Shown here: positions 18,952 to 28,942 of the stretch, piece after piece | How the letters are laid out: every line of letters starts with the position of its first letter | Numbering within the stretch: position 1 is the first letter of the stretch | Assembly: GCF_007859075.1 (NCBI RefSeq) | Contig: NZ_VOAK01000011.1 | Coordinates: 496,001-560,000, forward strand | Length of the DNA: 64,000 nt | DNA from: Gemmobacter aquaticus | GTDB lineage: Bacteria > Pseudomonadota > Alphaproteobacteria > Rhodobacterales > Rhodobacteraceae | Reading direction: 5' to 3' | Made by a program: the position numbers and the translations under genes | The notes under the pieces: generated by a model | Told to the model about the DNA's origin: nothing | Database searches by the model: none | Seen by the model: only the letters and a program-made list of their open reading frames with translations

Positions 18952-21021
18952 ATGCGGGGGCCGTGGATCTTGCGGCTGGTTATTTTGTGGTGGTGGCTTG
19001 GCTCCGCTGCCGCCGCGGTGCCGTTGTCGCGTGACGAGCTGACCCCCTTGATCGTGCCCCCCTACGCCCTTGGCGAGAACCTCGATGATCGCGGGGTCTG
19101 GGGGCTTCTGAACTCGGGCGGGGCCGAGGCGGGTTATGTATTGGAAACCGGCAACCTTGCCCCGCTGCCCGGCTTTTCGGGGGCGCCCATCAACCTTCTG
19201 GTCATGATCGACCTTGAGGGACGCTTCCTTGACGTAAAGCTGATCGCCCATAACGAGCCGATCTTCGTCTCGGGCCTTGGCGAGGCGCCGTTCCGCGCCT
19301 TCCTTGAACAATATCGCGGTCATTCCATCCACGAGCCTTTGGTCGTGGGTACGCCCTATGGGACTGCGGGCGGTGGCTCTGATCTCGTCTATCTGGATGG
19401 AGTCACCAAGGCGACGGCCTCGGTCCGTATCGCACATGAATCCATCCTGGCCGCGACGCTGGCCGTCGCGCGCGAGCGGATGCAGGGCATCGCCGCCGGC
19501 CCACCCGTGAGGCCTGATCCCGACGTCGTGCTTGCGCTGGACTGGGCGGCGCTGGTGGAGCGTGGCCTTGCGCGCAATCTGCGTGTCAGCAATGCCGAAC
19601 TGGATCAGGCCTTCGCTGGCACAGTGTGGGCCGATGATGACCCGGAGGCCGATGCTGATCCTGAGGCGATGTTTCTTGACCTCTGGGTCGTGGATATCGG
19701 TCCGCCCTCGGTTGCCCGCGCGGTTCTGACACCGGACAGTCTTGGCGATGTCGACCGTCTGACCCAGCTTTCCCCAGACGACGAGCTTCTTCTGGTGATC
19801 GATGCGGGGCGGCACGGGCTGGTCTCCGATGGCTTTGTGCGCAACACAGCGCCAGACCGGCTTTCGGCCGAACAGGACGGACTTCCGGTGGCCCTTCGCG
19901 ACGCGGACCTTTTGTTCGAGACCCTTCCCGATGTGCCCGAAGGTAGCGCGATGATCCTGCGTGTGGACCGGCGTCTGGGCTTCGATCCGACCCGTGACTG
20001 GGTGCTGACCGCGCAGGCCGTGCGCGCCCACGGTATGCTGCAACCCGAGATGGGATCGCAGCATTTCAGCCTGATCACACGATCCGACCCTGCGCTGTTC
20101 CGGCAGCCCGAGACACGCAAGGCGCTGCCGCCCTGGCAAGAGGCGCTGCTCAATCGCAAGATCGACCTGATCCTGCTGGTCGGTTTTTTGATCGTTGTTC
20201 TGGCGCTGGTCGGGCCTTCAATGCACGCTCTGGCCGCCCCCGCGCGGTTGACCCCGGTGCGGCTTGCTGTGCTGGCGGGAGTCATCGGCTTTGTGGGCTG
20301 GTGGGGGCAGGGGCAGCTGTCGATCGTGACGGCACTGGCCGTTCTGCGCGCGGCGGTCGAAGGCGGCAGTCTTGCGGTGCTGGTCTATGACCCATTCTCG
20401 CTTTTGGTCTGGGCAGTGGCGATCCTTGGCCTGTTCCTTTGGGGGCGAGGGCTGTTCTGCGGCTGGCTCTGCCCCTTTGGCGCGATGCAGGAATTTGCCC
20501 ATCACGCGGGACGGCTGCTGCGCCTGCCGGAATGGAACCCGTCTGCCCGCTGGGACCGGCGGCTGAAATGGGTGAAGTACGTGGCGCTGGCAGGTCTTGT
20601 CGCCGTTGCCTTTGTCCGGCCCGACGCAGCCGAAACCGCAGCCGAGATCGAACCCTTCAAGACCGCCGTCACCACGTTCTTTCAGCGTGAGTGGTACTTC
20701 GTCGCTTATGCGCTGTTCTGGCTGGGGCTTGGGATGGTGACCTTCAAAGGCTTCTGCCGCTATCTTTGCCCCTTGGGGGCGCTGATGGCGCTTGGAGGGG
20801 TGCTGCGCCTGCGCAAGTGGATCCCGCGGCGGGCCGAGTGTGGAACACCCTGCCAGCTTTGCCGCGTGCGCTGCCGCTACGGCGCGATCGAGCGCAGCGG
20901 AAAGATCGACTATTCCGAGTGTTTCCAGTGCCTTGATTGCGTATCCATCCATGATGACAAGGCGCAATGCGTGCCGCTGATTCTGGCCGCGCGGCGCCGA
21001 TCCACGACGGAGGCGGCATGA
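18952..21021 (+). CDS. NosR/NirI-family flavinylated membrane iron-sulphur protein
   Basis: A 689-residue polytopic protein of the NosR/NirI family: signal peptide, periplasmic FMN-binding domain, then membrane helices from about residue 400 and iron-sulphur sites. The motif DGVTKATAS at residues 149-157 fits the ApbE flavinylation signature, with Thr155 as the expected FMN carrier. Two Cys-x3-Cys-Pro motifs (CGWLCPFGAMQEF, CRYLCPLGALMALG) lie between helices. The tail has a ferredoxin-like cluster region (CGTPCQLCRVRCRYGAI, ECFQCLDCVSIH). NosR feeds electrons to nitrous oxide reductase, but no nos gene is here. Its stop overlaps the apbE start, and the neighbours are PQQ-dehydrogenase genes, suggesting it serves that system. 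Confidence 0.88.
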   Translation: MRGPWILRLVILWWWLGSAAAAVPLSRDELTPLIVPPYALGENLDDRGVWGLLNSGGAEAGYVLETGNLAPLPGFSGAPINLLVMIDLEGRFLDVKLIAHNEPIFVSGLGEAPFRAFLEQYRGHSIHEPLVVGTPYGTAGGGSDLVYLDGVTKATASVRIAHESILAATLAVARERMQGIAAGPPVRPDPDVVLALDWAALVERGLARNLRVSNAELDQAFAGTVWADDDPEADADPEAMFLDLWVVDIGPPSVARAVLTPDSLGDVDRLTQLSPDDELLLVIDAGRHGLVSDGFVRNTAPDRLSAEQDGLPVALRDADLLFETLPDVPEGSAMILRVDRRLGFDPTRDWVLTAQAVRAHGMLQPEMGSQHFSLITRSDPALFRQPETRKALPPWQEALLNRKIDLILLVGFLIVVLALVGPSMHALAAPARLTPVRLAVLAGVIGFVGWWGQGQLSIVTALAVLRAAVEGGSLAVLVYDPFSLLVWAVAILGLFLWGRGLFCGWLCPFGAMQEFAHHAGRLLRLPEWNPSARWDRRLKWVKYVALAGLVAVAFVRPDAAETAAEIEPFKTAVTTFFQREWYFVAYALFWLGLGMVTFKGFCRYLCPLGALMALGGVLRLRKWIPRRAECGTPCQLCRVRCRYGAIERSGKIDYSECFQCLDCVSIHDDKAQCVPLILAARRRSTTEAA

Positions 21022-21905
21022 AGCGGCGGCGGTTTCTGGCGATTTCGGCGGCCGCACTCGCCCTGCCGCCTGCGGCTGATGCCCATTCGACAAGCTGGCA
21101 GTCGCAGGCGCTTGGCGGGCAGGTGCGCGTCGATCTGCGGGGCGGAGAGGGGATGAACCAGCGGATCCTGTCCGCCATCGCCGCCATCATCGCCGAGGTC
21201 GAGGCTGCCGCGAGCCTGTTTCGTCCGGATTCTGCGTTGGTGCGTCTGAACGAGACAGGCGGGCTTGCGGACCCCCCGCCAGTTTTGCAGGACCTGCTCG
21301 GACTTTCTGACCGCCTGCATGCGGTAACGGGCGGGCTTTTCGACCCTACGGTTCAACCCCTGTGGCGGGCGCTGGCCGAGCGCGCCTCCGCGCAAGCGAT
21401 TGCAGAGGCCCGGTCGCGGATCGGCTGGCACAATGTCGCCCATCAGGATGGAGTGCGGCTCGCTCCGGGGCAGGCCCTGACGTTCAACGGAATCGCGCAA
21501 GGCTATGCCGCCGATCGCGTGGCGGCGGTGCTGCGGCGCGCGGGATATGGGCCGGCTCTGATCGATATGGGAGAGTTCGTGGCCCTCGATGGCCCCTTTA
21601 CGCTGGGCATCGACGACCCAACCCACGGAATGCTGGGTCAACGTCAACTGTCAGCCGGGGCGCTTGCGACCTCGAGCCCTGCGGCGCAGTGGTTGCCGGG
21701 CGGCACGCATATCCTTGGGCCGATGGATCAGGCGCCGGTCTGGTCCACCATCACGGTCGAGGCTGACAGCGCGGTTCTGGCCGACGGGTTGTCGACCGCC
21801 TTTTGCCTGATGCCCGCAACGATGATCCGGGCCGCCTGCGCCAACCTGCCCGAAGTGCGGCGCGTGACCGCCGTCACCTTTGAGGGCGAGTTCCTGACGC
21901 TTTGA
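21018..21905 (+). CDS. apbE: FAD:protein FMN transferase (ApbE)
   Basis: A 295-residue exported ApbE-family enzyme that attaches FMN from FAD to a Thr or Ser of a target protein in the periplasm. The start RRRFLAISAAALALPPAADA resembles a Tat signal. Family motifs are TGGLFDPTVQPLW, FNGIAQGYAADRV, the acidic ALIDMGEFVALDG and ADGLSTAFCLM. It overlaps the NosR-like gene by 4 bases (ATGA), so the flavin transferase and its presumed substrate are translationally coupled. It converges on the XoxJ-like gene. Confidence 0.93.
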   Translation: MKRRRFLAISAAALALPPAADAHSTSWQSQALGGQVRVDLRGGEGMNQRILSAIAAIIAEVEAAASLFRPDSALVRLNETGGLADPPPVLQDLLGLSDRLHAVTGGLFDPTVQPLWRALAERASAQAIAEARSRIGWHNVAHQDGVRLAPGQALTFNGIAQGYAADRVAAVLRRAGYGPALIDMGEFVALDGPFTLGIDDPTHGMLGQRQLSAGALATSSPAAQWLPGGTHILGPMDQAPVWSTITVEADSAVLADGLSTAFCLMPATMIRAACANLPEVRRVTAVTFEGEFLTL

Positions 21906-21910
21906 TCCGC

Positions 21911-22810
21911 TCAGGGGGCGGGCGGGGTGAAGGTCAGCCCGTGTTCGGCAAAGATCGCGGCAATCCGTCCATCCTCCATTGCCTTGTCGATGGCCATGTC
22001 CACCGAATAGGCCAGATCCTTGTGCTGGAAGTTCACGCCCACGCCGATCGTCCATGTGCCGCGCGCAAAACCCATGAGGTGCGGCTCATGCACACCGAGG
22101 CCTGCATCGGGGTGACGGGCGACGCCTGCCTCCAGCTGGGCGCGCGGGCCCATGGTTGCCATGACCTCGCCGGTAGCAAGCGCATCCATCGCAGCATCCA
22201 CGGATTTGTGGCGCGTAATCTTGGCCTGCGCGCCCAGAAGCGAGGTCAGGTAGAAGTCCGCTATCGTGTCATTCTCGACCGCGACCGGATCGAAACGGAA
22301 GAAGGGTGGCGTCGGCGCCTTGTCCGGGTAGGCGGCCTTGCGAAAGGCGATGGCCATCGTCTCTGACGCATATTGCCCGGTGAAGGTGACCTGTTCGATC
22401 CGGCAGACCAGCGCGCTGTCATAAGGCACATGCAACATCACGTCGCTGACATGGCCACCGACAACCGCGCCCTTCCAGACGTAGTTCAAGAGGTCAGCCT
22501 CCAGCGTCTCGCTGGCCTGAACCAGCCGGAAGCGTGCCTCGACCCCCAGATCCGCCGCGATCAGGCGGCCGATCTCGACATCAACACCCTTGGCCGTGCC
22601 ACCCTGCTCATAGGACCATGGTGCAAAGTCCTCATAGACCGCAAACTCGATCCAGCCTTCCTCGATGATGCGGTCGAATTCGCGCCCCACGTCCTGGGCT
22701 GCGGTGTTCTGGGGCTTGGGCTGAGGAACGACTCCTTCGCAACGGGCAAAGGCGCCACCCGGTAGGGCAGCGCCGATCGCCAGTGCCAAAAACGCTTGGC
22801 GGAGTGTCAT
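21911..22810 (-). CDS. XoxJ/MxaJ-like periplasmic binding protein of the PQQ cluster
   Basis: A 299-residue exported solute-binding-fold protein (signal peptide ending GGAFA, cleaved near residue 22). It contains YEDFAPWSYEQGGTAKGVDV and EIGRLIAADLGVEARFRL, as in family 3 amino-acid binding proteins, and the longer VGGHVSDVMLHVPYDSAL region found in the MxaJ/XoxJ branch. Such proteins accompany periplasmic PQQ dehydrogenases and are thought to activate or chaperone the enzyme. No ABC permease is nearby, which supports that reading. It follows pedF by 8 bases on the same strand. Confidence 0.82.
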   Translation of the reverse strand: MTLRQAFLALAIGAALPGGAFARCEGVVPQPKPQNTAAQDVGREFDRIIEEGWIEFAVYEDFAPWSYEQGGTAKGVDVEIGRLIAADLGVEARFRLVQASETLEADLLNYVWKGAVVGGHVSDVMLHVPYDSALVCRIEQVTFTGQYASETMAIAFRKAAYPDKAPTPPFFRFDPVAVENDTIADFYLTSLLGAQAKITRHKSVDAAMDALATGEVMATMGPRAQLEAGVARHPDAGLGVHEPHLMGFARGTWTIGVGVNFQHKDLAYSVDMAIDKAMEDGRIAAIFAEHGLTFTPPAP

Positions 22811-22818
22811 GACAGGGC

Positions 22819-23505
22819 CTATTCGCTGGCCGAAAGGCCGACGGTCAGAAGATCGCTCGCCACCTTCCAGCTTGCGGGCTCGGGTGTCAGGACGCGCGCG
22901 GCCTCATAGGCCACGCTGTCGGCCACCGGGGCGCCGGATGCTGTCTTGACCTCCACCGCGATGGTCTCAAGCTCGGACTTCAGGGCCGCGGGATCCGTGA
23001 CACTGCCATCCGCCAACGAGTCGCGAATCTCATGCAGGCGGTCCGAATGGGCATCGAGTGCGCCATCTTCGGGGCGTGTCTCGATATAGGTGCGAATTGC
23101 CCATGCGGCCTTCTGGCCGAGGATCTCGCCAAAGGCGGGCATCTTGGTTGTGCCGTCTTGCGTATAGCCGTGGCGGAAGCGTTCGACGAACCATTCATCG
23201 CCGTATTCCTCGGCCTCGAGGAACCGCAAGTCAGGGGCCAGGCCGCCCGACACTGCGCCAAGGCCATGGCAGCGCGCGCAGTTCTGGTTGAAGCCCGAGG
23301 CGCCGATCTCGACCGCCTTGAGCCAGACCTCATGCCCGGCCGCTTCCTCGCGGTAGGGGTTCTCGGTCAACCATTCCTCGCCCACCTCAGGCAGGGCGTC
23401 GGTATTGATGGGCTGCGGTGCAACATCACCGTGACCAAGCGCCATGGTTGCTGCCGACAGCAGGGCAATTGCGGTGATTGCGCCACCGATGCGATGTGCG
23501 GGCAT
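22819..23505 (-). CDS. pedF: Cytochrome c-550 PedF, electron acceptor of PQQ alcohol dehydrogenase
   Basis: A 228-residue periplasmic c-type cytochrome. The start at 23505 is set by GGGAGGAA; a signal peptide ends near LGHG. One haem site, CARCH, is at residues 76-80, and Met122 in TTKMPAF is the likely sixth ligand. The long C-terminal extension (about residues 145-228) is as expected of PedF. This cytochrome takes electrons from quinoprotein ethanol dehydrogenases such as ExaA/PedE and passes them to an oxidase. It is divergent from the binding-protein gene at 23667 and sits 3.7 kb from the dehydrogenase. Confidence 0.9.
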   Translation of the reverse strand: MPAHRIGGAITAIALLSAATMALGHGDVAPQPINTDALPEVGEEWLTENPYREEAAGHEVWLKAVEIGASGFNQNCARCHGLGAVSGGLAPDLRFLEAEEYGDEWFVERFRHGYTQDGTTKMPAFGEILGQKAAWAIRTYIETRPEDGALDAHSDRLHEIRDSLADGSVTDPAALKSELETIAVEVKTASGAPVADSVAYEAARVLTPEPASWKVASDLLTVGLSASE

Positions 23506-23666
23506 GGGTTCCTCCCTCGCGGTTCCTTTTCCGTCTTCGGTGATAGGCCCCGCAGGGCAGGCCGCACCATTCGACATAGGTGGTAAACTGCCCGATCCGG
23601 CATCGGACAAAGGTCGCATAGCCCCGGAGTGTGGTTCTTCGCACCATGACCGCGGGAGGACGCGAG

Positions 23667-24854
23667 ATGATCTATCACCCGACAAAGGCCGGGCGGAATG
23701 CCTGTCTGGCACTGGTGTTCGCCAGTTGCACCATGCCTGCGCAGGCGGACCTCAGCATCGCGATGACCTATCTGCGCCAAGAGGTTGAGGCGCCGCCCGT
23801 TCTTTCGAACCTCGACCCGATTCCCGAGGATCGCGGCATTGCCGGGGCTGAGGTTGCGCTGGCCGACACCCGCACCACCGGGCAGTTTCTGGGCCATGAC
23901 TATCAGCTTGAGGTCGTCTCGGTGCCGCCGGGCGACGATCTGGCAGGGGCGGCAAAGGCGGCACTTGCGTCATCGCGCATCCTGCTTGTCGATGCGCCGA
24001 CGGCCGATGTGCTGACCGTGGCCGATCTGCCCGAGGCGCAGGGCGCGCTTCTGTTCAACGTCTCGTCCGGAGCGCGCACCCTGCGCGATGCCGAGTGCCG
24101 GGCGAACCTTCTGCACACGGTTGCCGAGGATGCGATGCGGACTGATGCGCTGATGCAGGTTCTGGCGGCCCGGCGCTGGACCCGCACGGTGATGATCATC
24201 GGTCCGCGCGACGAGGACCGCGCCTTTGCCGAAACCCTGCGCGCCTCGGCCCTGAAATACGGGGTAGAGATCTTGGCGGAAAAGGACTGGACCTTCGAGA
24301 CCGACCTGCGCCGGTCTACTAGTGCCGAGATCCCGCTCTTTACGCAGGACTTTCCAGATCATGACGTGCTTCTGATCGCGGATGAGACGGACGACTTCGC
24401 GCGCTACGTTCAGCACAATACCTGGCTTCCGCGCCCGGTGGCCGGGTCGGACGGGCTGCATGGCGAGGGCTGGGCGCCGGTCCTTGAACAATGGGGCGCC
24501 GTTCAGTTGCAGAACAGGTTCGAAAAGTATGCGGGCCGGAACATGGGCGCGCGCGACTATGCGGCCTGGGCTGCGGTGCGCAGTGTGGGTGAGGCGGTAA
24601 CGCGCAGCCAGAGCGACGACCCGGCCGTTTTGCGCGCCTATATCCTGTCCGACGCCTTTGCTCTCGACGGCTTCAAGGGGCGCAGCCTCTCGTTCCGTGA
24701 CTGGAACGGGCAGCTGCGTCAGCCGATGGCGGTCGTGAATGCCCGCGCCCTGGTCGAGCTCGCGCCGCTTGACGGCTACCTGCACCAGACCAACGAAACC
24801 GATAGCCTTGGCCTTGATCGCGGCGAAAGCGCCTGCACAGCCTTTGGAGACTGA
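23667..24854 (+). CDS. PQQ-catabolism-associated ABC-type binding protein
   Basis: A 395-residue exported protein of the family named for ABC substrate-binding proteins in PQQ-dependent alcohol dehydrogenase systems. The start at 23667 follows GGAGG with a 7-base spacer, and a signal peptide (CLALVFASCTMPAQA) follows. The fold resembles branched-chain amino-acid binding proteins (RTVMIIGPRDEDRAFAETL, DVLLIADETDDFARYV). Normally an ATPase and a permease gene stand beside it; both are missing here. The beta-propeller gene starts one base after its stop. Confidence 0.85.
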   Translation: MIYHPTKAGRNACLALVFASCTMPAQADLSIAMTYLRQEVEAPPVLSNLDPIPEDRGIAGAEVALADTRTTGQFLGHDYQLEVVSVPPGDDLAGAAKAALASSRILLVDAPTADVLTVADLPEAQGALLFNVSSGARTLRDAECRANLLHTVAEDAMRTDALMQVLAARRWTRTVMIIGPRDEDRAFAETLRASALKYGVEILAEKDWTFETDLRRSTSAEIPLFTQDFPDHDVLLIADETDDFARYVQHNTWLPRPVAGSDGLHGEGWAPVLEQWGAVQLQNRFEKYAGRNMGARDYAAWAAVRSVGEAVTRSQSDDPAVLRAYILSDAFALDGFKGRSLSFRDWNGQLRQPMAVVNARALVELAPLDGYLHQTNETDSLGLDRGESACTAFGD

Positions 24855-24855
24855 C

Positions 24856-25830
24856 ATGAGACTGGCCGCCATCCTTCTGATCACCACCTTGCCCGTGGCC
24901 GCTTTGCCCACGGCGACCCATGCCGCAGGCGAAATCTGGGTGACCAATGAAAAGGATGACACGATCTCTGTCATCGATGTCGAGACGCGCCAGGTGGTGC
25001 GCACCATCGAGACGGGCGAGCGGCCGCGGGGGATCACCTTCAATTCGGACGGAAGCAGGCTTTACATCTGCGCCTCTGACAGTGACGCCGTGCAGGTGAT
25101 GGACCCGGCGACGGGCGAGATCCTGCACGATCTGCCGTCGGGCGATGACCCCGAACAGTTCGTGCTGGCCCCCGATGATCGCCACCTGTGGATCGCCAAC
25201 GAGGATGACGCCGTCACAACCGTCGTCGATGTGGAAACCCGCAAGGTCGTGGCGCAGATCAATGTGGGGATCGAACCCGAGGGCATGGCCGTCTCGCCCG
25301 ATGGCAAGATCGTGGTGACCACATCCGAGACGACCAATATGGCCCATTGGATCGACACCGGGAAGAAAGAGATCTTCGCCAATACGCTGGTCGATTCCCG
25401 ACCGCGCCATGCCGAGTTCACCAAGACCAGCAACGAGCTTTGGGTCTCGTCGGAAATTGGTGGCACGATCACGGTCTTCGATGTGGCAACGCAGGCCGAG
25501 AAGGCCAAGGTCCGGTTCGAGATCGCAGGCGTGAATGCCGATCTGCTGCAACCCGTAGGCTTCAAGTTCACGCCTGACGAAAAGACGGTGTTCGTCGCCC
25601 TTGGCCCGGCCAACCACGTCGCGGTTGTGAATGCCGAGACCTACGAGGTCGAGGACTACATCCTTGTCGGTCGGCGGGTCTGGCACATGGCCTTCTCGCC
25701 CGATTTTACCCAGCTTTTCACGACCAACGGTGTGTCCGGTGATGTCACCGTGATCGATGTCGCCTCGCGGCAGCCGCTCGAATCCATCAAGGTGGGCCGC
25801 TTCCCCTGGGGCGCGGCGACCCGGTTCTGA
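24856..25830 (+). CDS. PQQ-catabolism-associated beta-propeller protein (YVTN repeats)
   Basis: A 324-residue exported protein with a signal peptide (LITTLPVAALPTATHAAG) and about seven YVTN-type blades, for example IWVTNEKDDTISVIDVETRQ, LYICASDSDAVQVMDPATGE and LWIANEDDAVTTVVDVETRK. The family is found with PQQ alcohol dehydrogenases; its function is unproven, and binding of a cofactor or a protein partner is possible. It begins one base after the preceding binding-protein gene and is 19 bases from the next. Confidence 0.9.
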   Translation: MRLAAILLITTLPVAALPTATHAAGEIWVTNEKDDTISVIDVETRQVVRTIETGERPRGITFNSDGSRLYICASDSDAVQVMDPATGEILHDLPSGDDPEQFVLAPDDRHLWIANEDDAVTTVVDVETRKVVAQINVGIEPEGMAVSPDGKIVVTTSETTNMAHWIDTGKKEIFANTLVDSRPRHAEFTKTSNELWVSSEIGGTITVFDVATQAEKAKVRFEIAGVNADLLQPVGFKFTPDEKTVFVALGPANHVAVVNAETYEVEDYILVGRRVWHMAFSPDFTQLFTTNGVSGDVTVIDVASRQPLESIKVGRFPWGAATRF

Positions 25831-25849: not shown

Positions 25850-26305
25850 ATGAAACGCATGATCCTTGCCGCAGCCGTGCTCTGCGCGCTGCCCATGATG
25901 GCCATGGCCGATGACGACGAGGCGGCAGAGGGGGCCGAAATGGGGCTGGCAGGCCTTTTGTCGGCGACGAACCGGGCTGAGCTTCCGCCGCTGACCCTGT
26001 CGGCCGGACAGCCGATTGCCGCCGCGCCCCTGAAGCTCAAGTCCGGCACCTATTACACGCTTGAGATCGAGGCCGATGGCAGCCAGGAGCTTGCGCTGGA
26101 AGGTTCGGGGTTCTTTCGAGCGATCTGGGTCAACGAGGTGGTGATCGAGGGCATCGAGGTACGTCCACTGGGCATCGATTCCATCGAGTTTGACGAGGCA
26201 GGCTCGGCCGAGATGAGTTTCATCGCCATCAAGCCCGGCAGTTATTTCCTGAAGGTGCCAGGGAGTACCGGCGACAGCCAGCAGGTCGAAATCGTGATCG
26301 AATAG
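25850..26305 (+). CDS. Uncharacterised exported protein of the PQQ island
   Basis: A 151-residue protein I do not recognise. A signal peptide (MILAAAVLCALPMMAMA) is followed by an acidic stretch and a beta-rich domain with GQPIAAAPLKLKSGTYYTLE, FFRAIWVNEVVIEG and IAIKPGSYFLKVPG. The last motif recalls the C-terminal strands of cupredoxin-like folds, but the usual Cys/His/Met copper ligands are absent. AGGAG precedes the start. It lies 19 bases after the beta-propeller gene in the same direction, so it is probably periplasmic and part of the alcohol-oxidation operon. Confidence 0.8.
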   Translation: MKRMILAAAVLCALPMMAMADDDEAAEGAEMGLAGLLSATNRAELPPLTLSAGQPIAAAPLKLKSGTYYTLEIEADGSQELALEGSGFFRAIWVNEVVIEGIEVRPLGIDSIEFDEAGSAEMSFIAIKPGSYFLKVPGSTGDSQQVEIVIE

Positions 26306-26387: not shown

Positions 26388-26951
26388 ATGCGACACGTCG
26401 TCCTGTCGATCGGCCTGATTGCGCTTTCCAGCGCTCTCGCCCACGCCGAAACCAACTTGGATGCGGGGATCGAGGATGGCGGCGGCACCCTCAACCCCGA
26501 GGAGCTGACCCTTGGTCGCGTCATGAGCGATGTGGCCGAGGGCAAGACCAGCATGACGACCTGCGCCGCCGGGTACTACATCACCAAATCCGGTCGCCAC
26601 GAAATGGCGCGCGAGCTGTTCGAGCTCTGCGCGAACAACGGCTGGACGGGCGCGATGACCTGGATGTCGCAGCTGGACAACAACGGTCTGGGCGCGCCAG
26701 AGGACCCCGATGCCGCCGCCAACTGGGACCGCCGCGCCGCCGAGGCGGGCGATCCGGTGGGGCAGTTCAATTACGGGGTCGATCTGATGCGCGGGCGCGG
26801 TGTTCCCGCCAATGAGGAACTGGGCCGCCAGCTCGTCGATCAGGCCGCGCGTGCGGGTCTGTCGGATGCGCGGCGCCTGCAGGCTTCGGGCTATGATCTT
26901 GATGAGATCACGCCCGATGCCGACAACTGGAAATACGCCCCGCTGTTCTGA
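26388..26951 (+). CDS. Exported Sel1-repeat protein
   Basis: A 187-residue exported protein (signal peptide VVLSIGLIALSSALAHA). Two or three Sel1-like repeats follow, e.g. NNGLGAPEDPDAAANWDRRA and AEAGDPVGQFNYGVDLMRGR. Two cysteines, in TTCAAGYY and FELCANNG, may form a disulphide. Sel1 proteins usually mediate protein-protein contacts. A ribosome site CGAGGAGGAGCC stands before the ATG, and a terminator follows at 26978, so it ends the transcript that starts with the binding-protein gene. Its role in PQQ metabolism is inferred from position only. Confidence 0.85.
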   Translation: MRHVVLSIGLIALSSALAHAETNLDAGIEDGGGTLNPEELTLGRVMSDVAEGKTSMTTCAAGYYITKSGRHEMARELFELCANNGWTGAMTWMSQLDNNGLGAPEDPDAAANWDRRAAEAGDPVGQFNYGVDLMRGRGVPANEELGRQLVDQAARAGLSDARRLQASGYDLDEITPDADNWKYAPLF

Positions 26952-27175: not shown

Positions 27176-28942
27176 ATGAGAAGCTTTGTTCTGGCCGCCG
27201 TCACGGCCATCGTCTGCGCGGGATTTGCTCAGGCGCAGGTGACGGAAGAGGATCTGGCGAAGGACGCCGAAACCCCTGGCGACGTGCTGACCAACGGCAT
27301 GGGCCGCAGTCTGCAACGCTTCTCGCCGATGGAGACGCTGAACAAGACCAACGTGCAGAAACTGGTTCCCGCCTGGGCGTTCTCGCTGGGTGGCGAAAAG
27401 CAGCGCGGTCAGGAAAGCCAGCCCATCATCTATGACGGGATCATGTATATCACCGGCTCGTACAGCCGGCTGTTCGCCATCGACATCAAGACCGGCAAAG
27501 AGCTGTGGCAGTTCGATGCCCGCCTGCCGGAAGGCATCCTGCCCTGCTGCGACGTGATCAACCGCGGCGCGGCCATCCATGGCGACAATATCTATTTCGG
27601 TACGCTGGACGCCCGCATCGTCGCGCTGAACCGCAAGACGGGCGATGTCGTCTGGAACAAGAAGATCGCCGACTACAAGGAAGGCTACAGCTACACTGCC
27701 GCGCCCCTGATCGTGAACGGGCTGGTCATCACCGGCAACTCGGGCGGCGAATTCGGCATCGTGGGCGAAGTGCAGGCCCGCAACGCCGAAACGGGCGAGC
27801 TGGTCTGGACCCGCCCGGTGATCGAAGGTCACATGGGCACCTACATGGGCAAGGAAAGCACCATGACGGGTACGCTCAACGCGACCTGGCCGGGGGACAT
27901 GTGGAAATCGGGCGGCGGCGCAACATGGCTCGGCGGCTCTTATGATGCCGACACCAACACGCTGGTCTTTGGCGCTGGCAACCCGGCACCGTGGAACAGC
28001 CACCTGCGCAACGCGGGCACCCCGGTCGAGGGCAACAAGGGTGACAACCTCTATGCCGCCTCGCGCCTTGGTATCAACCCCGAGAACGGCGAGATCAAAT
28101 GGCACTTCCAGACCACCCCGCGTGAGGGTTGGGACTTTGATGGCGTGAACGAGGTTGTGCCCTTCGTCGACAAGGACGGCAACAAGCGCTTTGCCACCGC
28201 CGACCGCAACGGGTTCTTCTACATTCTGAACCGCGAGGACGGAAAGTTCGTCAACGCCTGGCCCTTCGTGAAGAACATCTCCTGGGCCAAGGGCATCGAT
28301 GAAACTGGCCGCCCGATCTACAACGAAGACAATCGCCCCGGCGATCCGACTGCCTCGGCCGATGGGGCCAAGGGCGCGCAGGTCTTCGCTGTGCCGTCCT
28401 TCCTTGGTGGCAAGAACTGGATGCCCATGGCCTACAGCCAGAAGACCGGCCTCTTCTATGTGCCGTCGAATGAATGGGGGATGGACATCTGGAACGAACC
28501 GATCAGCTTCAAGAAGGGCGCGGCCTACCTGGGTGCGGGCTTTACCATCAAGCCGCTGTTTGAAGACTATATCGGCAGCCTGAAGGCGATGGACCCCAAC
28601 ACCGGCGAGGTGAAGTGGGAGTTCAAGAACGAGGCTCCGCTTTGGGGTGGCGTGATGACGACAGCGGGCGGGCTGGTCTTCACTGGCAACCCCGAGGGCG
28701 ACTTCATGGCGCTTGATGACGAGACGGGCGAGGTTCTGTGGAGCTTCCAGACCGGGTCGGGCATCGTGGGCCAGCCCGTCACCTGGGAACAGGATGGCGA
28801 GCAATATGTCTCGGTCATCTCTGGCTGGGGTGGCGCGGTCCCGCTGTGGGGCGGGGAGGTGGCCAAGAAGGTCAACTACCTGAACCAGGGCGCGACCGTC
28901 TGGACCTTCAAGCTGCCGAAGGAACTGGCCGCGGCCAACTGA
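27176..28942 (+). CDS. PQQ-dependent alcohol dehydrogenase, predicted lanthanide type
   Basis: A 588-residue periplasmic quinoprotein (signal peptide ending FAQAQ), start set by GGGAGG. It has the eight-bladed quinoprotein propeller, with tryptophan-docking repeats such as [13 protein letters not shown] and [13 protein letters not shown]. The adjacent cysteines Cys124-Cys125 (ILPCCDV) form the family's vicinal disulphide near PQQ. Metal and catalytic residues are Glu192, Asn269 and Asp320. Asp322, in GWDFDGVNE, is the additional acid that marks lanthanide-dependent enzymes such as PedH and XoxF, where calcium enzymes have Ser or Ala. Overall similarity is to the ethanol-type ExaA/PedH group. 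Its own terminator follows. Confidence 0.92.

Follow-up and report, generated by a model that had tools for sequence, protein, structure and literature searches.

A stretch of 64,000 nucleotides from the alphaproteobacterium Gemmobacter aquaticus (contig NZ_VOAK01000011.1, positions 496,001 to 560,000; hereafter the window, numbered from its first letter) encodes a NosR-like membrane protein and an ApbE-family flavin transferase beside an island of genes for alcohol oxidation with pyrroloquinoline quinone (PQQ). We consider it very likely that this pair is dedicated to the PQQ/PedF alcohol dehydrogenase system, since the NosR-like protein has its own ApbE, its relay ligands are conserved, it co-occurs with PedF and the dehydrogenase, and it does not depend on nosZ. 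As to function, we tentatively favour, at slightly less than even confidence, an outward maintenance role in which the pair would act as an electron wire and keep the alcohol dehydrogenase redox-competent.

The NosR-like protein and its ApbE

The pair consists of the following genes:

18952..21021, + strand: NosR-like transmembrane flavin/iron-sulphur protein of 689 amino acids, of a quinoprotein-associated clade
21018..21905, + strand: ApbE-family FAD:protein FMN transferase (FAD, flavin adenine dinucleotide; FMN, flavin mononucleotide), PF02424 at 140 bits, with the twin-arginine leader MKRRRFL

The predicted flavin threonine of the NosR-like protein, T155, sits in the motif DGVTKATAS within an FMN-type N-terminal domain, the transmembrane part carries the CX3CP pairs C503/C507 and C602/C606, and eight C-terminal cysteines (C630-C634-C637-C641 and C657-C660-C663-C673) would hold iron-sulphur clusters. 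The initial annotation, made from the letters of this DNA alone, had pointed to the threonine motif and the paired CX3CP; both are present, and all 12 cysteines together with T155 are invariant in an alignment of 40 family sequences (21 of the window clade with the window protein included, 8 orphan or PQQ-adjacent, 10 NosR and 1 NirI-type). The Fer4_5 domain (PF12801) was detected in the window protein (E 2.2e-12) and in 32 of 32 relatives. Pfam FMN_bind gave weak matches, at E <=0.1 in 21 of the 32 relatives (best 0.0016) and not at 0.1 in the window protein itself. With Foldseek the top match of the FMN domain was RnfG (7zc6_G; probability 0.99 but E 0.022), nothing for the NosR-like protein reaching E 0.001 or better, and a sequence search of the PDB returned marginal matches only, to complex I subunit 3 and RnfG. 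The AlphaFold model is weak (predicted local distance difference test, pLDDT, 73.8; predicted template modelling score, pTM, 0.56), the loop preceding T155 falls below 50, and the CX3CP cysteines could not be placed. Against the NCBIfam NosR model (NF046105) the protein scored 433 bits (E 1.5e-129), short of the curated cut-off of 1000 bits; since the nosZ-adjacent NosR of the same genome also falls short (813 bits), this cut-off alone is not decisive.

The open reading frame (ORF) listed for apbE opens at 20967, and its likely start is the ATG at 21018. This ATG and the TGA stop of the NosR-like gene (21019-21021) share the four base pairs ATGA (21018-21021), which agrees with the overlap described in the initial annotation. 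The overlap is not due to chance since it recurs in 102 of 113 loci having an adjacent apbE. These 113 come from a set of 116 NosR-like loci (some genomes present twice; L122 excluded for want of a full NosR-like ORF) and have apbE adjacent and co-directional; L069, among the remaining three, is cut by a contig end. By simple pattern match, each of the 113 adjacent apbE genes codes for RRx[FLVI] within the 80 N-terminal residues. ApbE is expected to attach FMN to the NosR-like protein.

Co-occurrence with PedF and the PQQ dehydrogenase

Among 149 genomes of the order, 36 contain an orthologue of the window protein (853-1570 bits), the next matches being NosR/NirI-type proteins at 310 bits or less. 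PedF was over its cut-off in 37 of the 149, namely in all 36 orthologue genomes and in G128 (36/36, p 8e-34, a value that shared ancestry inflates, as it does the other co-occurrence p-values given below). No NosR-like match accompanies PedF in G128, but its PedG/PedF genes lie 1-2 kb from a contig start and the absence is uncertain. The PQQ dehydrogenase family TIGR03075 was found in 50 of the genomes, including 36/36 with the orthologue, and nosZ in 49, including only 6 of the 36, so that 30 of the 36 lack it. The initial annotation had suggested that the pair may serve the PQQ enzyme instead of NosZ and had proposed a neighbourhood survey as a check; the near perfect co-occurrence with PedF and the dehydrogenase upholds the tie to the PQQ/PedF system, while the transmembrane electron role stays a prediction.

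A scan of genome_contigs found 437 relatives, of which 80 were kept as loci; these overlap partly with the genomes of the order survey and belong, by record title, to Rhodobacterales, Rhizobiales, Rhodospirillales and unplaced alphaproteobacteria. Within the DNA fetched, apbE was found in 78 of the loci, PedF in 65, a PedG-like gene in 66 and the dehydrogenase in 38, and of the 79 loci with a full NosR-like ORF, 72 have LDGVTKATAS without a mismatch. The nearest relatives in this set (L079-L091, about 71-75% identity) include those of Shinella, Rhizobium, Ensifer, a Rhodobacter metagenome-assembled genome and Frigidibacter. In the order sample the best identity to the window protein is 67%, and the comparison suggests that the island has been transferred.

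In a phylum sample of 349 genomes, PedF was over cut-off in 31 and the orthologue clade was present in 7. Outside the class, 18 further NosR-like places were fetched: ten of them are neighbours of nosZ, another six are orphans, and the remaining two (G468 and G422) adjoin PedF, PedG and the dehydrogenase, with pqqB/pqqE as well in G468. The idea that all mid-scoring matches outside the class are quinoprotein partners was therefore rejected, 10 of the 18 being NosR adjoining nosZ. A quinoprotein-side protein was counted in 15 of the 349 genomes, and 15/15 have PedF (p 4e-18); this count includes G008 by identity, outside the tree, and was made with context checked for matches above 297 bits and with three candidates scored per genome.

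The kind of dehydrogenase was also compared. All 36 dehydrogenase ORFs of at least 450 amino acids beside NosR-like or PedF genes (a set in which some genomes contribute two ORFs and not every orthologue genome contributes one) carry [LM]PCCDV and WD[FY]DG. A further 20 dehydrogenase regions, 15 from 13 PQQ genomes of the order without PedF or the orthologue and 5 second copies from orthologue genomes (four more such second copies were outside the comparison), have VMCCDT in 18 cases and KGCCDV in 2. Judged by these motifs, the link of the NosR-like protein is with the ped-type dehydrogenase. The window enzyme has the adjacent Cys-Cys (PCCDV) and the Asp of WDFDG, which we take to be the mark of lanthanide-type PQQ dehydrogenases. 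Outside the class, PedF loci also carry WDFSG dehydrogenases.

A clade separate from NosR and NirI

In a tree of 40 chosen sequences, 29 quinoprotein-associated or orphan proteins were split from 11 NosR/NirI proteins with support of 100/100. Orphan and PQQ-adjacent sequences group with the window clade, and a long stem leads to the alphaproteobacterial clade; the genome's own NirI-type sequence and L186 were flagged as long rows. By this phylogeny the window protein is a member of a clade separate from NosR/NirI. It resembles NosR with NosX/ApbE in the FMN threonine, the two CX3CP motifs, the eight C-terminal cysteines and the ApbE partner, but identity is about 30-35% and the window gene is not beside nosZ. 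Furthermore, the window clade has Lys153 ([TS]KAT) where 10/10 aligned NosR proteins have Gly ([ST]GAT), Ser157 for the Thr of NosR and Val674 for its Pro. The NosR family is split by use, one side in denitrification and the other with alcohol oxidation, and the tag [TS]KAT versus [ST]GAT separates the two sides with one exception (L182). The NirI/NirX pair of the Paracoccus type has the same architecture, with an identity of 28-29% and an SRAT motif in NirI. PceC/RdhC of organohalide respiration has an exocytoplasmic covalent FMN domain, as is predicted for the window protein, and also two CX3CP motifs, but PceC is without the two C-terminal 4Fe-4S motifs of the window protein (PMC5928378).

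The initial annotation had stated that no nosZ, nosD or nosF gene is present. This is correct locally but not for the whole genome, in which nosZ (1116 bits), NosD and another NosR (C2:53902-56019) lie together on another contig, C2, with an ApbE downstream at C2:61733; nosF was not searched for. Neither outcome that the initial annotation had set as refuting, a nosZ operon that depends on the window protein or a lack of co-occurrence with PQQ genes, was seen, as the nosZ there adjoins its own NosR and the co-occurrence is near perfect. A NirI-type protein (C2:42207-44024) with an ApbE at C2:40157 is the third pair of this kind, so that the genome holds three NosR-family proteins and three ApbE genes. 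No NCBIfam family was matched at 1e-20 by the nos-region ApbE ORF or by any of five ORFs surrounding the NirI-type gene, and general family scans named no island protein over cut-off as a nitrite reductase protein, no search directed at nirS having been made.

Near complementarity with a SoxYZ-like relay

The Pseudomonas ped cluster shares PedF, PedG and a PQQ dehydrogenase with adjacent Cys-Cys with the window, but has a SoxYZ-like/SoxH/rhodanese relay instead of the NosR-like pair (PMC12997753). In the phylum sample, 16 of the 31 genomes with PedF have a SoxYZ-like carrier (TIGR04557) scoring above its cut-off. One genome (G015) has both modules, 14 only the NosR-like protein, 15 only SoxYZ, and one (G428) neither (p 8.6e-7, ancestry uncorrected); put otherwise, SoxYZ is found in 1 of 15 PedF genomes with the NosR-like protein and in 15 of the 16 remaining. 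In G015, SoxYZ adjoins a Xox-type dehydrogenase. Within genus g156 the NosR-like protein is found in G206 and SoxYZ in G210 and G289.

Before the order was searched, the prediction was fixed that SoxYZ would be found in the 14 orthologue-free PQQ genomes and in G015, G054, G066, G092 and G114, and in no other orthologue genome. The outcome was as expected in 13 of the 14 (not G014) and in 5/5, and there were three contrary cases, G053, G103 and G122; overall, SoxYZ is present in 13/14 PQQ genomes without the orthologue versus 8/36 with it. It was not found in the window's genome at E 1e-20. Strict exclusivity was rejected since G053, G103, G122 and locus L136 hold both, and the complementarity of the NosR-like protein and SoxYZ is strong, not strict.

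For the SoxYZ/SoxH/rhodanese proteins, disulphide formation, cofactor stabilisation and PQQ protection have been proposed as roles, the choice being left open (PMC12997753). It is conceivable, if on balance unlikely, that PedF-type PQQ dehydrogenases have one need, such as the reductive upkeep of PQQ or the Cys-Cys, which the NosR-like/ApbE pair meets in some bacteria and the SoxYZ-like/SoxH/rhodanese relay in others, the membrane flavin pair giving electrons from inside the cell where others use a thiol carrier. Should the split of the NosR family by use be confirmed, the SoxYZ-like relay would have a counterpart open to experiment.

Proposed role of the pair

In the maintenance role that we favour, ApbE would act in the periplasm and attach FMN to T155, and electrons would pass between the cytoplasmic C-terminal iron-sulphur clusters, the CX3CP transmembrane site and FMN. 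Quinol or a donor in the cytoplasm would supply the electrons, which would flow outward to the periplasm; this is the most speculative step, and outward is the most likely direction since PedF already takes the catalytic electrons. The wire would keep or make the dehydrogenase redox-competent via PQQ, the Cys-Cys disulphide or PedF, and the SoxYZ-like relay would meet the same need in many other genomes. A parallel would be found in NosR/NosX, in which NosZ activity in the cell requires NosX: this protein is essential for whole-cell N2O reduction, although the copper centres assemble without it (PMC7660919). Searches of openly licensed papers in PMC turned up no experimental work on NosR-like proteins in PQQ systems.

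Besides the inflated p-values, several observations weigh against this proposal. The parallel with NosZ is imperfect, NosZ being a reductase whereas the alcohol dehydrogenase works as an oxidase, and the direction of flow, the attachment of FMN and the phenotype are predictions. Two of the 80 loci (L113 and L118) want an adjacent apbE and retain the flavin motif, and the six orphan genes outside the class have neither apbE nor PQQ genes within the 19 kb fetched. In the phylum sample, 16 of the 31 genomes with PedF manage without a quinoprotein-side NosR-like protein. SoxYZ accompanies a Xox-type dehydrogenase in G015, G054, G066, G092 and G114, but in G053, G103 and G122 (3 of the 36 orthologue genomes) a second dehydrogenase was not found, and in G103 and G122 a few kilobases separate SoxYZ and the NosR-like gene; SoxYZ is also nearby in L136 (1 of the 80 genome_contigs loci). 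Finally, the dehydrogenase beside PedF in the orphan genome G171 (L200) is WDFSG, without the lanthanide-type Asp, and therefore a link to lanthanides is not general.

The most serious alternative, doubtful in our estimate but a real possibility, is that the FMN domain serves as an electron outlet, taking electrons from the dehydrogenase across the membrane to the quinone pool in place of a cytochrome or beside it. This model comes from a computational report of 2021, in which NapH-like clusters with ExaA/alcohol oxidase were found in 172 genomes, the flavin protein was drawn in place of cytochrome c and several independent origins were inferred (Meheust, PMC8238504). The initial annotation had held stand-alone use in PQQ systems to be experimentally undescribed; this is only partly right, as our search of openly licensed papers found no experimental description but the 2021 report gives a computational one. 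Those clusters share with the window a Fer4_5 membrane protein and ApbE beside a PQQ alcohol dehydrogenase, and the complete set of relay ligands would suit an outlet. Lys153, which is specific to this clade and lies beside the flavin threonine where NosR has Gly, could make the flavin potential higher, but for a flavin at its usual potential electron transfer from PQQ would be uphill. Furthermore, PedF, which holds the outlet role in Pseudomonas (PMC12997753), is present in 36/36 orthologue genomes of the order. Replacement of cytochrome c was therefore rejected for this clade, the flavin protein being an addition; this speaks against replacement only, not against an outlet beside PedF. If the split of the NosR family by use is confirmed, the published substitution model would need revision for this clade. 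Our chosen sequences, in contrast to the several origins, fall on one side of one branch, and a wider sample may hold several.

A redox-sensing role, in which the protein would report the system's redox state and control the alcohol genes, is improbable. A function of this kind was the original proposal for NosR and NirI, and NCBIfam continues to name its NosR model a transcriptional regulator, but no DNA-binding domain was found in family scans of the NosR-like protein, and the later view of NosR is that it takes part in NosZ activation and electron transfer to NosZ (this history is given in PMC5928378). If the split of the NosR family by use is confirmed, genes annotated as NosR/NirI regulators would be mis-assigned.

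That the window protein acts as a second NosR for the nitrous oxide reductase or nitrite reductase of this genome is very improbable: it is of the same family and nosZ is present in the genome, but nosZ adjoins its own NosR with ApbE downstream, by which service to the genome's own N2O reduction was ruled out, 30 of the 36 orthologue genomes lack nosZ, and the clade is a separate one. The NosR-like gene is separated from PedF by about 140 kb in G003, and in G028 and G022 the two stand on different contigs, not near ends that could join. This might suggest a chance neighbour without a role in alcohol oxidation, but such a reading is scarcely credible, given that the co-occurrence persists in these three genomes, is complete overall and is matched by PedF within the fetched DNA of the 65 loci (some from the same genomes). 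G065 and G076 were dropped as examples of separation since their NosR-like and PedF genes are both close to contig ends and possibly neighbours.

The neighbouring PQQ alcohol-oxidation island

Downstream of apbE, the window carries the following genes:

21911..22810, - strand: PedG-like periplasmic solute-binding protein (SBP_bac_3), named from its place beside PedF in the surveyed loci
22819..23505, - strand: PedF, cytochrome c-550 (TIGR04494, 193 bits, cut-off 122)
23631..24854, + strand: TIGR03863 substrate-binding protein of PQQ alcohol dehydrogenase systems (464 bits, cut-off 413.6)
24856..25830, + strand: TIGR03866 PQQ-associated beta-propeller protein (513 bits, cut-off 287)
25850..26305, + strand: probably secreted protein of 151 amino acids, no family match, recurrent in 49 of 80 loci
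26388..26951, + strand: Sel1-repeat protein of 187 amino acids, recurrent in 42 of 80 loci
27176..28942, + strand: PQQ alcohol dehydrogenase of the methanol/ethanol family (TIGR03075, 769 bits, cut-off 480)

The ORF listed for PedF extends to 23712, its start at 23505 being placed from the signal peptide, and that of the TIGR03866 gene opens at 24739, with a probable start at 24856. The initial annotation had named pedF, a quinoprotein dehydrogenase and a XoxJ-like protein as neighbours; the first two names hold, and the third gene encodes a family-3 solute-binding protein that is PedG-like by position.

Neither pqqB nor pqqE was found in the window, and a search of the whole genome, covering PqqE only among the pqq genes, gave nothing over cut-off (best 96.7 bits versus 381, at C2:50453-51514, close to the nos region), yet the listed completeness of this genome is 99.97%. 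The alcohol dehydrogenase of this organism may rely on externally supplied PQQ. In another genome (G065, locus L065), the NosR-like/apbE pair is placed after genes that by their sequence features are pqqB/pqqC/pqqE-like, with PedF on a separate contig. In some roseobacter loci, genes that look like those of an aerobic CO dehydrogenase lie between apbE and pedG (L100, 13006-17251), and a coxL-like match is also present in L063 and L055.

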